DNA from: Halosimplex halophilum
Lineage (GTDB): Archaea > Halobacteriota > Halobacteria > Halobacteriales > Haloarculaceae
Direction of reading: 5' to 3'
Assembly: GCF_004698125.1 (NCBI RefSeq)
Contig: NZ_SRHV01000005.1
Span: forward strand, 310,001 to 374,000
Length of the DNA: 64,000 nucleotides
The notes under the pieces are model-generated. The model searched no databases. It saw nothing but the letters and a program-made list of their open reading frames with translations, and was not told the origin of the DNA. Both the position numbers and the translations under genes were made by a program. Positions 3,484 through 10,256 of this stretch are shown here, piece after piece (position 1 is the first letter of the stretch; each line of letters opens with the position of its first letter).

Positions 3484-3942
3484 TCAGGCGGGGTTCTTCC
3501 GCGTGAGGTCGCTCCCGCAGACGGGACAGCGGTCGTGGTTCTCGTCGAACTCGCGGCCGCAGCCGGAACACTGGAAGCGCCAGTCGCGCTGCTCGGTGAT
3601 CCCCTCGCGGGCGATGAGCTCGACCGCCACCTCCAGCTTCTCGGCGACGTTCTGCATGGCGTAGTCGTCGGTGACGAGCCGGCCGTCGAGCTCGAACGCG
3701 GCGGCGACCAGCCGGATGTCCGTCTCCGAGAGGGTCTCGAGGTCGCCCGTCTCGCGGGCGGCGCGCTCGATCCGCTCGACGGTCTCCTCCTCGGGGATGT
3801 GGATGTGCATGCCCGACCCCTCCATGGCGTCGTAGCGGTAGGCGCTCTCGTCCTCCAGCTCCTCGCGGACGAGCGGGATCGTGGCCTGCTGTTCGGTCGT
3901 GTGATACTCGTTGATAAAAGCCGAGGCGTCGAGGACGTACAT
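3484..3942 (-). CDS. nob1: Nob1-like rRNA maturation endonuclease (PIN domain plus zinc ribbon)
   Basis: This 152-residue protein has an N-terminal PIN nuclease domain: MYVLDASAFI carries the first acidic residue (Asp5), SETDIRLV the central Asp75, and TDDYAMQNVA the Asp92/Asp93 pair. A C-terminal zinc ribbon follows, with Cys125-x2-Cys128 and Cys139-x2-Cys142. This domain order is that of archaeal Nob1, which cleaves the 3' end of 16S rRNA during small-subunit maturation. Its ATG abuts the stop codon of the upstream PRC-barrel gene (TAAATG), so the two are co-transcribed and probably translationally coupled. The zinc ribbon separates it from VapC toxins. Confidence 0.9.
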   Translation of the reverse strand: MYVLDASAFINEYHTTEQQATIPLVREELEDESAYRYDAMEGSGMHIHIPEEETVERIERAARETGDLETLSETDIRLVAAAFELDGRLVTDDYAMQNVAEKLEVAVELIAREGITEQRDWRFQCSGCGREFDENHDRCPVCGSDLTRKNPA

Positions 3943-4182
3943 TTAGCGCTGGACGATCATCTGGTCTTTGACTGCCTGGACGCGGTCGACGGGCACGAGG
4001 AGGTGGCCCTGCTCGTCGACCTCGAACTGCGAGTTGTCGAGGTGCTCGTTGGGCTCGATGATGAGGTTCTGCAACCGACCGGTCTCCAGGTCCATCGTGA
4101 TGTTGTACAGCATCCCCATCTCGGCGCCGTCCGTTCCGGTGACGGCCTTGCCGGAGAGGTTCTCGGCGAGTATCTCGGCCAT
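3943..4182 (-). CDS. PRC-barrel domain protein
   Basis: This 79-residue protein runs from MAEILAENLSGKAV to VKDQMIVQR. The sequence GKAVTGTDGAEMGMLYNITMD followed by GRLQNLIIEP matches the small beta-barrel PRC fold, which is found in the photosynthetic reaction-centre H subunit and in RimM, a ribosome maturation factor. It is the first gene of a two-gene operon with nob1, its stop directly touching the nob1 start. That linkage makes a role in rRNA processing reasonable, but it is inference. A longer upstream reading frame exists, but it runs antisense to the halocyanin gene and was rejected. Confidence 0.85.
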   Translation of the reverse strand: MAEILAENLSGKAVTGTDGAEMGMLYNITMDLETGRLQNLIIEPNEHLDNSQFEVDEQGHLLVPVDRVQAVKDQMIVQR

Positions 4183-4330
4183 ACTCCCGACTACCGAGTG
4201 AGGCCCCATAAACGCCACGGGGCCGTCTGACGACCGCGTGACGCCCGCTGTGCGGTCCGTCGGGGCCCGCCGCGGGCTCACAGTCGCCGGAACCACCGGG
4301 ATTATGCGGGTGGTCGTCCATGTCGTCGCC

Positions 4331-4870
4331 ATGGAGCGCAGACGCCTGTTGCGGACGAGCGCCGTCGCGCTCGCGGGGCTCGTCCCGGGGTGCGGGCTGG
4401 GATCGGGTGACGGCACGGCGACGCCGGACGACGATCCGGCACCGAGCGACCCGCCGGCCGCCACGACCGGCGCGCCGACCGCCGCGCCGACGGCGACGCC
4501 GACCGCGGAGCCGACGCCGACGCCGACGGCGACCCCCACTGCCACGCCGACGGCGACGCCCACGCCGGCGCCGAGCGACGCCGACCAGGTCGTCGCCGTC
4601 GCCGACGGGTCGGGGGAGTTCGACCCCGAGACCTTCGAGATAGCGACCGGCGAGACGGTCGTCTGGGTGTGGCACGCGTCCGGCCACAACGTCCGGGCGA
4701 CCGCGCGGCCGCGGGGCTCGACGTTCACCGGCACCCCCGGCGGCGACGGGACCACCTACGGCGAGGGGTACACCTTCGCCCACACCTTCGAGGTCGCCGG
4801 CCAGTACGAGTACCGCTGTTACCCCTACCGGAACCTCGGCATGACGGGCTCGTTCACCGTCGTCGAGTGA
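4331..4870 (+). CDS. Halocyanin-like lipoprotein with altered copper site
   Basis: This 179-residue protein begins with a twin-arginine-like signal (MERRRLLRTS) and a lipobox ending at Cys21, so it is probably lipid-anchored outside the membrane. Residues 30-82 are a Thr/Pro/Ala-rich low-complexity linker. Residues 85-179 form a cupredoxin domain (GETVVWVWH). Type-1 copper ligands are normally His, Cys, His, Met. Here His119, Cys163 and Met171 are in place, but the second His is Tyr166 in the motif CYPYRNLGM. It may therefore bind copper differently or not at all. The gene 91 bases downstream is a paralogue that keeps the histidine. Family: small blue-copper electron carriers. Confidence 0.87.
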   Translation: MERRRLLRTSAVALAGLVPGCGLGSGDGTATPDDDPAPSDPPAATTGAPTAAPTATPTAEPTPTPTATPTATPTATPTPAPSDADQVVAVADGSGEFDPETFEIATGETVVWVWHASGHNVRATARPRGSTFTGTPGGDGTTYGEGYTFAHTFEVAGQYEYRCYPYRNLGMTGSFTVVE

Positions 4871-4961
4871 CGGGGCGTCGCCCGCCGGGTGACGCAGCCT
4901 CGCCCACCGAGTGGTCCGGAGCGTCGCGGGGTTTATTCCGCGACGGTCCTGAGCGGGGGGC

Positions 4962-5546
4962 ATGGACCGCCGTAGCCTGCTCCGACTGGGTGGAACCGCG
5001 CTCGCCGCCGCCGTCGCCGGCTGCGGCGGGGACGACGACACCGAAACCGACGACGGCTCCGGGACCGACGGCGACGCGACGCCGACCGAGAGCCCGACGC
5101 CGACGGAAACGCCCGGGACGGATACGCTCACCCCCTCACCCACCGCCGAGGCGACGCCCACCGCGACGCCGACCGACACGCCCGACTCGGCGGGGACGCC
5201 GACCGCGAGTCCCACGCCCACCGAGACGCCGACGCCCACGGCGACACCCAGGCAGGCCGCGCAGGTCGTCGCCGTCGCCGACGGAGGACTGTCGTTCTCG
5301 CCCGAGACCTTCGAGATAGCGACCGGCGAGACGGTCGTCTGGGTGTGGCACAGCTCCGGGCACAACGTGCGTCCCGCGACGACCCCGAGCGGGTCGGCGT
5401 TCTCGGGGACGGCCGGCGGCGACGGCGACCTCTACGACGAGGGCCACGAGCTGTCGTTCACCTTCGAGACGCCCGGCGAGTACGAGTACTACTGCAGCCC
5501 CCACCGAACTGCCGGGATGACGGGCTCGTTCACCGTCACGGAGTAG
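4962..5546 (+). CDS. Halocyanin (blue-copper lipoprotein)
   Basis: This 194-residue protein starts MDRRSLLRLG, a twin-arginine-like signal, and has lipobox Cys21 (AAVAGC). A Thr/Pro-rich linker covers about residues 24-97 and a cupredoxin domain follows. All four expected copper ligands are present: His134 (SGHNVR), Cys178, His181 and Met186 (CSPHRTAGM). It probably shuttles electrons at the outer face of the membrane. It is a tandem paralogue of the preceding gene; the two share a perfect 51-base block (4625-4675 and 5301-5351), which points to a fairly recent duplication or gene conversion. Confidence 0.92.
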   Translation: MDRRSLLRLGGTALAAAVAGCGGDDDTETDDGSGTDGDATPTESPTPTETPGTDTLTPSPTAEATPTATPTDTPDSAGTPTASPTPTETPTPTATPRQAAQVVAVADGGLSFSPETFEIATGETVVWVWHSSGHNVRPATTPSGSAFSGTAGGDGDLYDEGHELSFTFETPGEYEYYCSPHRTAGMTGSFTVTE

Positions 5547-5644: not shown

Positions 5645-7459
5645 ATGGCAGACTCACAACCGACAGACACCGACGACGAGTCCGAGGCGACGCTTCGGAC
5701 ACCGATAGTCGCCGTACTCGGCCACGTCGACCACGGCAAGACCAGCCTGCTCGACGAGATCCGCGGCTCCGCGGTCACCGAGGGCGAGTCCGGCGCGATC
5801 ACCCAGCACATCGGCGCGACCGCGGTCCCGCTCGACGTGATCTCCGAGATCGCCGGCGAACTCGTCGACCCCGACGACTTCGACCTGCCCGGCCTCCTCT
5901 TCATCGACACGCCCGGCCACCACTCCTTCTCGACGCTGCGCTCGCGGGGCGGGGCGCTGGCCGACATCGCGATCCTCGTCGTCGACGTGAACGACGGCTT
6001 CCAGCCCCAGACGCTCGAAGCCGTCGACATCCTCAGCCGCACGCAGACCCCCTTCATCGTCGCCGCGAACAAGATCGACACCACGCCCGGCTGGAACCCC
6101 AACCCGAACGCCCCCAGCAAGCAGACCATCGAGGCCCAGACCGACCGCGTCCAGAGCGACCTCAACGAGAACCTCTACGAGCTCATCGGCGATCTGTCCG
6201 ACAACGACTTCTCGGCGGACATGTACTGGCGCGTCCAGGACTTCCAGAACAACGTCGGCGTCGTCCCCGTCTCCGCCGAGACCGGCGAGGGCATCCCCGA
6301 CCTGCTGACCGTCATGATGGGCCTCTCCCAGCGCTACATGAAAGCGGAGATGGCCGTCGACGTGGACGGGCCCGCCGCCGGCACGGTACTGGAGGTCACC
6401 GACACCCAGGGCTTCGGGGCGACCGTCGACGCCATCATCTACGACGGCACCATCTCGGCCGACGACCAGATCGTGGTCGGCGGCGTCGAGGGCCCCATCG
6501 TCACCGAGGTCCGCGCGCTGCTGCGCCCGCGCCCGCTCGAGGAGATCCGCACCGAGGGCCAGTTCGAACAGGTCGACTCGGTCAAGGCCGCCGACGGCAT
6601 CAAGATCGCCGCGCCGGACCTCGACGACGCGATGGCCGGCGCGCCCATCCGCGTCGTCGGCGACCGCGACGTGGACGACGTGATCGAGGAGGTCCGCGCC
6701 GAACTCGCGGACATCGCCGTCCAGACCGAGGAGGAGGGCGTCGTCGTCAAGGCCGACACGCTCGGGAGCCTGGAGGCCCTGGCCTCGACGCTCGAAGAGG
6801 AGGAGATCCCCATCGTCCGCGCCGAGGTCGGCGACATCGCGCCGCGGGACGTGCGCGTCGCCGAGACGGCCAACGAGGACAAACACCGCACCATCCTCGG
6901 GTTCGGCGTCGAGGTGCTCGACGACGCGGCGGACCTGGCCGAACAGGAGGACGTGCGGGTCTTCGACCACGACGTGATCTACCGGCTGGTCGAGGAGTAC
7001 GAGGAGTTCGTCGAGGAGCGCGAGCGCGCCCAGCAGGACCAGGTCCTCGAAAATATCACCCGGCCCGCCCGCTTCCGGATCCTCGACGACCACACCTTCC
7101 GCCAGTCCGATCCCGCCGTCGTCGGCGTCGAGGTGCTCGGCGGCACGCTCAGACGCAACTCCAACGTCGCGCTGTTCGAGGGCAGCGAGCCCGAGCGCGT
7201 GGGCCTGCTCAAGTCCATCCAGGACGAGGGCGAGGACGTCGACGAACTACAGCGCGGCGAGCGCGCGGCCGTCTCCATCGACGGCCCCACCGTCGGCCGC
7301 CAGATCGAGGAAGGGGACGAACTCTGGACGGAGATCCCCGAGAAACACGCCAAGATCCTCGAACAGGAGCTCTCGGAGGACATCCCCGTCAGCGAACTCG
7401 AGACGCTCAACGCGTACCTCGAGAAGCGGCGCAACCGCGACCCCTTCTGGGGGAAGTGA
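5645..7459 (+). CDS. infB: Translation initiation factor aIF5B (IF2-like GTPase)
   Basis: This 604-residue GTPase promotes subunit joining at the end of translation initiation. Motifs: P-loop GHVDHGKT (about residues 25-32), switch II DTPGH, and NKID for guanine recognition. After the G domain come beta-barrel domain II, the alpha/beta/alpha domain III (around [14 protein letters not shown]) and domain IV with the long connecting helix region [11 protein letters not shown]. The protein lacks the long N-terminal extension of bacterial IF2, as expected for archaea. The ATG at 5645 was chosen because the upstream open frame overlaps the halocyanin gene and only from here does the protein align with the family. 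A 9-base hairpin follows the gene. Confidence 0.95.
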
Positions 7460-7490
7460 CCGACCGAGAAGGGGCCGACGCCGAACTAAC

Positions 7491-7516
7491 CGACTTCGGC
7501 GGCCGCTCCGAAGTCG
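7491..7516 (+). terminator. Hairpin downstream of infB
   Basis: A perfect 9-base inverted repeat (cgacttcgg at 7491-7499, ccgaagtcg at 7508-7516) with an 8-base loop lies 32 bases after the infB stop, in the convergent gap before a minus-strand gene. No strong T-run follows, so it may be an RNA-stabilising or bidirectional 3'-end hairpin and not a classical terminator. Confidence 0.4.
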
Positions 7517-9677: not shown

Positions 9678-10256
9678 GTGACGCCGACACGCCGCTCGGT
9701 CCTCAGGACGGTCGGTACGGCGAGTGCGCTCGCGCTGGCCGGCTGTCAGACGGGAGGCCCAAGCGACTCGGGCACCGACAGCGCGCCGCCGCGGGCGCCG
9801 ACCGATTCACCGACGCCGGAGCCGACGCCGTCGGAGACGCCAGAACTACCCGCTCGGCGGGCGCTCCCGGAAGCGGGCGATGATTGGGAACTCATCGGGA
9901 TCGACCGGATCAGCGCGACGAACCTCGGCGGGAAGGCCGGCTTCACCGGCGGGTACCGGGATCCGGAGGGTACTCGCTTTCGCGTCGTCGCCCTGGAGAT
10001 GAGCGAGGGGTACGACGCCGCCGACAAGGCCGAGCGGTGGGCCTGCATCGGCTGGGACATGGCGGTCGCCTACGAGGGCTTCGCGCTCGCCGCCGGGACC
10101 GGGACCGAGCAGCGGAACTACACGCCGGAGACGCCACCGAACATGGACCGGACGGCGATCCCCGGCAGCGCGGACCGGTCCCGGGAACTGCTCACGCGGT
10201 CGCCGCTGCTCTCCGCGGAACGCGTCGACGCCAACGAAGTCGCCTGTGAGGAGTGA
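9678..10256 (+). CDS. Secreted lipoprotein of unknown function
   Basis: A 192-residue protein with a twin-arginine-like signal (MTPTRRSVLRTVG), hydrophobic core and lipobox Cys23 (ALAGC). A Pro/Thr/Ser-rich linker covers about residues 27-56. The folded part (about residues 60-192) contains WELIGIDRISATNLGG and FRVVALEMSEGYDAADKAERWACIGWDMAVAYEGFALAAG, which recalls small haloarchaeal periplasm-facing domains, but I cannot name it. Cys residues near 122 and 190 could pair. The GTG start is supported by the TATA-like box at 9648. It is convergent with nadE, with a 16-base gap. Confidence 0.7.
   Translation: MTPTRRSVLRTVGTASALALAGCQTGGPSDSGTDSAPPRAPTDSPTPEPTPSETPELPARRALPEAGDDWELIGIDRISATNLGGKAGFTGGYRDPEGTRFRVVALEMSEGYDAADKAERWACIGWDMAVAYEGFALAAGTGTEQRNYTPETPPNMDRTAIPGSADRSRELLTRSPLLSAERVDANEVACEE

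Follow-up and report, generated by a model that had tools for sequence, protein, structure and literature searches.

A tandem pair of putative halocyanin-type lipoproteins in Halosimplex halophilum includes one copy in which Tyr stands at the position of the second copper His, and this Tyr is shared by intact, selectively constrained genes of five Halosimplex genomes. We regard copy 1 as very probably a selected functional variant, and its site as likely to be something other than a normal blue copper site; tentatively, we read it as a neofunctionalised halocyanin that would have given up ordinary blue-copper electron transfer and that holds or passes copper. The features of the pair, numbered in the window (the whole 64,000-nucleotide stretch of DNA that was analysed), are as follows:

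4331–4870, + strand: copy 1, a putative halocyanin-type lipoprotein of 179 aa in which Tyr166 takes the place of the second copper His (five of the six orthologues, this one among them, have Tyr)
4962–5546, + strand: copy 2, a putative halocyanin-type lipoprotein of 194 aa with all four type-1 copper ligands (orthologues all CxPH)
4577–4867, + strand: cupredoxin domain of copy 1, residues 83–179 (AlphaFold2 model and PDB structural match)
4826–4828, + strand: Tyr166 codon, TAC, in place of the copper His (sequence and alignment)
4814–4816, + strand: Arg162 codon, at the plastocyanin Tyr83 position (Arg confined to the Tyr clade among 53 aligned rows)

Translations and motif comparison bear out what the sequence-only reading had said of the ligands, namely that copy 2 carries His134, Cys178, His181 and Met186, and that in copy 1 Tyr166 replaces the equivalent of His181 while the other ligands (His119, Cys163 and Met171) are kept. 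The ligand loop reads CYPYRNLGM in copy 1 versus CSPHRTAGM in copy 2. Of the two His and one Cys that serve as equatorial ligands in a type-1 site, copy 2 has all, whereas copy 1 has one His and the Cys, with Tyr at the second His. PROSITE pattern PS00196, which requires the loop His and is taken here as printed in the available part of PMC517927, matches only copy 2 of the two. Both copies score above the Pfam gathering cut-off of 21.2 bits for PF00127 (Copper-bind; 47.9 bits for copy 1 and 63.9 for copy 2) and below the curated NCBIfam cut-off of 93.8 bits for TIGR03102 (halo_cynanin; 44.3 and 46.8 bits), and we assign them to a divergent halocyanin subgroup, apparently orthologous to the single-copy genes that adjoin infB across the family. 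Copy 1 opens with a twin-arginine start followed by a lipobox-like site at Cys21, read from the sequence by eye, which we take to be Tat and lipobox motifs; the protein is thus probably exported and lipid-anchored.

The fold of copy 1, a Greek-key beta sandwich, is predicted to be intact, with an AlphaFold2 mean pLDDT of 96.1 for its domain and 97.8 for that of copy 2, which lies at 5256–5543. The best PDB match of the copy 1 model was plastocyanin 2plt (Z 15.4, rmsd 1.4, 90 residues aligned, 34% identity), and the copy 1 sequence matched plastocyanin 1bxu with E 2.7e-15. This predicted fold and the PF00127 score support the earlier description of the domain as a cupredoxin. In the model of copy 1, the ligand loop forms a helix that is slightly longer than in copy 2.

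The genome that holds the window (4.47 Mb) contains 15 matches to the halocyanin model, one of them with Tyr. We compared eight Halosimplex genomes including this one, with H. pelagicum, H. carlsbadense, H. aquaticum, H. salinum and one MAG among the relatives, and found the tandem pair in six and a single copy in two. The copy 1 loop was CYPY in five of the six pairs (G000, G002, G003, G004 and G005) and CYPH in H. aquaticum (G001), and a search of the seven relatives for the Tyr motif returned G002–G005 exactly. All six copy-2 genes and both single-copy genes carry CxPH. One of the five Tyr copies encodes the residue as TAT, not TAC, a synonymous change. A sequencing error as the source of the Tyr, which the sequence-only reading had named as what would overturn it, is ruled out, as is a one-off change, by the presence of the same Tyr in five genomes, one of them with this silent codon change.

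The wider sample covered the class evenly with 391 haloarchaeal genomes, in which the Tyr pattern (C-x-P-Y-x3-G-M-x-G, which looser variants would escape) occurred in 5 genomes and the His pattern in 366. Since the Tyr pattern run as a backward control likewise gave a few chance matches in the 391 genomes, the context of each Tyr match was read. Three of the five lie in Halosimplex; the other two, in G220 and G078, are halocyanins split over two and three reading frames, respectively, and are plausibly pseudogenes. Within the 391-genome sample, the intact Tyr form is confined to Halosimplex. The two broken genes, which belong to another haloarchaeal family, lie at about 1190–1560 of L049 (G220) and about 1100–1580 of L050 (G078) and represent decayed genes or assembly errors.

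The Tyr appears to have a single origin. In a tree of 34 domains, the five Tyr copies formed one clade (support 100/96), the His-bearing copy 1 of H. aquaticum was its sister (98/97), and the copy-2 genes formed a separate group (82/71). Because the Tyr copies form one clade within copy 1, the tree indicates that His changed to Tyr once, after the duplication. Outside the genus, a single halocyanin adjoins infB, with His in 21 of 21 loci in which the domain could be read (L081 has CSVH); since this arrangement extends across the family, a single His-bearing halocyanin beside infB would be the ancestral state, and the duplication would have occurred within Halosimplex. A protein-level tree of partial infB did not resolve the species tree; in it, H. 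salinum grouped with H. aquaticum (83/91). H. salinum may have been single-copy from the start or may have lost a copy, and the single origin of the Tyr holds in either case. One single halocyanin gene beside infB outside the genus, L072 (G023:C17:290197-290475), reads TAG in frame in place of a Trp codon (VL*VW), which is either a sequencing error or a natural nonsense mutation.

The Tyr and His copies are under equally strong purifying selection: NG86 dN/dS was 0.15–0.36 among the Tyr copies (10 pairs) versus 0.18–0.36 among copy-2 genes (10 pairs), with dS being rough in such GC-rich genes.

The pair also shares its longest identical block, which had been described as a perfect 51-base match and is exactly that:

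4625–4675, + strand: 51-base block identical to 5301–5351, a probable gene-conversion tract
5301–5351, + strand: 51-base block identical to 4625–4675

Within the block, the two copies of this genome differ at 0 of 51 positions, while those of the other five pair genomes differ at 6–13, and copy 1 here differs from the other copy-1 genes at 4–10. Outside the block, copy-to-copy differences number 68 in this genome, 38 in H. aquaticum and 65–73 in the other genomes. The block is best explained by a recent, short gene conversion; the tract stops before the ligand loop and carried no His into copy 1. Because the H. aquaticum copies are unusually alike outside the block (38 differences versus 65–73), we considered whether the His of its copy 1 had been restored by conversion from copy 2, which is not favoured, because codons of the copy-1 type lie to either side of the CAC. 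Conversion could still account for the Tyr that this gene has at the position of plastocyanin Tyr83. The H. aquaticum pair (L021/L024) is near-identical along some 60 bases ahead of the ligand loop, which points to gene conversion in that pair as well.

To place the Tyr among its accompanying changes, we used an alignment of 53 rows, five Tyr copies and 48 others. From the 15 halocyanin matches of the window's genome, it took L001–L004, both tandem copies and two more (as L034 and L042); of 22 loci fetched outside the genus, 20 entered, L072 (in-frame TAG, motif CVPH) and L082 (contig edge, domain unread) being dropped; L039, a match from the Halosimplex search, was left out of the counts. An alignment with a count of Tyr at this site had been proposed in the sequence-only reading, which had also called loss of a copper His unusual in the family. 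With Tyr in 5 of the 53 rows and His at position 166 in all 48 rows outside the Tyr clade, along with the 5 versus 366 genomes above, that description holds. The ligands His119, Cys163 and Met171 are kept in all five Tyr copies. Nine of 92 columns (94, 95, 96, 131, 141, 142, 162, 166 and 169) separate the Tyr copies from the nine other Halosimplex domains, and five of these (94, 96, 141, 142 and 169) lose their uniqueness in the 53-row alignment. Position 95 is Gly or Ala in the five Tyr copies, Arg in H. aquaticum copy 1, and L, F, M or Y in the other 47 of 47 rows, and Arg162 occurs in 5/5 Tyr copies versus 0/48 other rows.

In plastocyanin, Leu12, His87 and residue 90 are part of a hydrophobic docking patch, and Tyr83 is part of the second electron-transfer site. 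By profile alignment, columns 95, 162, 166 and 169 correspond to plastocyanin Leu12, Tyr83, His87 and residue 90, respectively. Since equivalents of these docking and transfer residues are changed, the electron-passing face appears to have been rebuilt around the lost ligand. Among the structural matches of copy 1 is a PDB entry whose title mentions low reactivity of a G8D/L12E mutant. The sequence-only reading had offered three outcomes of the ligand loss, namely a changed redox potential, a three-ligand site or abolished binding; because the electron-transfer face seems to have changed together with the ligand, the latter two are favoured over simple tuning of the potential.

Halocyanin is taken here as the one-electron carrier of haloarchaea, as described in the accessible portion of PMC8305020. 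In the history that we propose, the ancestral single halocyanin beside infB would have duplicated within Halosimplex, and copy 2 would have kept on carrying electrons through an ordinary type-1 copper site. In copy 1, the hydrophobic residue corresponding to plastocyanin Leu12 would have been lost first; later, in the common ancestor of the five species, the exposed copper His would have become Tyr and the residue before the Cys would have become Arg. The resulting protein would still be exported, lipid-anchored and cupredoxin-folded, lacking both the exposed His that is the usual electron route and the hydrophobic patch for partner docking. Its copper binding, oxidation state and role are conjectural, and we judge, by a narrow balance, that copy 1 still binds copper. 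Such copper would be held by Cys163, His119 and Met171, a soft set favouring Cu(I), with Tyr166 capping the site, and copy 1 would hold or hand over copper rather than shuttle electrons.

Copy 1 may instead carry no copper at all and use its cupredoxin scaffold in a structural, binding or regulatory role as a surface lipoprotein, a reading that comes near in likelihood to the copper-holding one. Its strong ligand was lost together with the equivalents of the hydrophobic patch and of Tyr83, and ephrins, like early nodulin-like proteins, are cupredoxin-fold proteins that serve without copper. The early nodulin-like proteins (ENODLs) described as unable to bind copper in the available text of PMC4499708 provide a precedent. 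Such a scaffold would have left Cys163, His119 and Met171 free to be lost, yet all five Tyr copies keep them; this weighs lightly in a young clade, and by a rough estimate chance is plausible at the domain's average constraint, making three kept ligands over five related species weak evidence for metal binding.

Copy 1 could also be a functioning redox protein in which an atypical fourth ligand, either the Tyr166 phenolate or a His swinging in, completes a Cys/His/Met site and produces red or green copper and an altered potential. We consider this unlikely. The candidate His is encoded as follows:

4673–4675, + strand: His115 codon of copy 1 (a His four residues before His119)

His115 occurs in 5/5 Tyr copies and in 6/9 other Halosimplex domains of the locus (11/14 in total), versus 0/39 remaining rows, which represent other genera or other halocyanin groups, and cupredoxins that differ in ligand geometry and colour do occur in nature, according to the part of PMC4059628 that could be consulted. 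However, His115 is missing from 3/6 copy-2 orthologues and is present in H. aquaticum copy 1 and several copy-2 genes in which the ligand His is intact. Because it predates the ligand loss, it is not a dedicated replacement ligand, though it could have been drafted to the copper site. The clade-specific columns show no gain of a His on the Tyr branch, and takeover of the ligand role by another His, which had been raised as a way in which the earlier interpretation might fail, is not favoured. The lost Leu12 equivalent and the Arg found at the Tyr83 position also speak against the usual electron partners, and a phenolate at neutral pH requires activation. The more specific proposal that Cys, His, Met and a tyrosinate bind copper in copy 1, a product of duplication next to a blue-copper sister gene that stayed unchanged, we hold to be improbable; we know of no such ligand set in any single-domain cupredoxin. 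Finally, a decaying gene in which the Tyr is noise, or a sequencing error, is most improbable: both Tyr cases outside Halosimplex sit in broken frames, so Tyr can accompany decay, but we reject a pseudogene for the Halosimplex copy 1, where frames are intact in all five Tyr copies, dN/dS is as low as in copy 2, and the signal peptide and a promoter-like element are conserved.

Among known proteins, halocyanin of the Natronomonas pharaonis P39442 type (TIGR03102) is a haloarchaeal lipoprotein with one cupredoxin domain, as both copies are predicted to be, and shares with copy 1 the CxPxxxxGM loop and the placement of the His, Cys and Met ligands; its second His, given as His151 in the accessible part of PMC517927, is Tyr in copy 1. 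Plastocyanin shares the fold, loop length and ligand order of copy 1, while the equivalents of its His87, Leu12 and Tyr83 are Tyr166, Gly95 and Arg162. Nitrosocyanin, AcoP and other oddly coloured cupredoxins are, as copy 1 appears to be, natural departures from the classic blue site; to our knowledge, the loop His is replaced by Tyr in none of them. By analogy, copy 1 may also be likened to the early nodulin-like proteins, a plant phytocyanin branch of cupredoxin paralogues in which copper-ligand residues were lost and the gene was kept; unlike these, copy 1 is changed at only one of four ligands. Loss of copper ligands within the cupredoxin fold is thus already known in plants (ENODL; PMC4499708, as far as its available text goes). 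The literature searched, in which subscription chemistry was sparsely covered, yielded no intact prokaryotic halocyanin with a conserved Tyr in the loop-His position, nor was a Tyr variant of azurin His117 found in the available portion of PMC12071310. The locus offers a single-origin natural experiment, with an unchanged sister gene adjacent, related His-bearing species and five Tyr species, in which one can ask what a blue-copper protein becomes once its exposed His is lost, and whether prokaryotic cupredoxins turn copper-holding or metal-free, as in plants.

Upstream and downstream of the pair, the gene order, assigned by Pfam matches and also read in relatives, is glucose-6-phosphate isomerase, CAAX-protease-like, PIN-domain, PRC-barrel, halocyanin gene(s) and aIF5B:

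3484–3942, − strand: PIN-domain protein, presumably NOB1-like, a conserved upstream neighbour (PF17146)
3943–4182, − strand: PRC-barrel protein, a conserved upstream neighbour in the opposite direction (PF05239)
4299–4307, + strand: TATA-like element (GGGATTATG type) about 28 bases before the copy 1 ATG (similar sequence at the same position in the other five pair genomes)
5645–7459, + strand: aIF5B (infB), a conserved downstream neighbour that adjoins halocyanin across the family (Pfam GTP_EFTU, IF-2)

None of the PIN protein, PRC-barrel protein and infB offered a hint of copper handling, and the same neighbours flank the His-only orthologues. The TATA-like element precedes copy 1 in 6/6 pair genomes, and one was found before copy 2 in 5/6, those in which the script located the start, which suggests separate promoters and leaderless transcripts for the two copies. 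At the otherwise conserved H. salinum locus (L054), an ORF at 6317–7516 on the − strand, which we take to be transposase/TnpB-like, lies directly downstream of infB. Further along the window, at 9678–10256 on the + strand, lies a lipoprotein-like ORF with a Thr/Pro linker and without a Pfam match.
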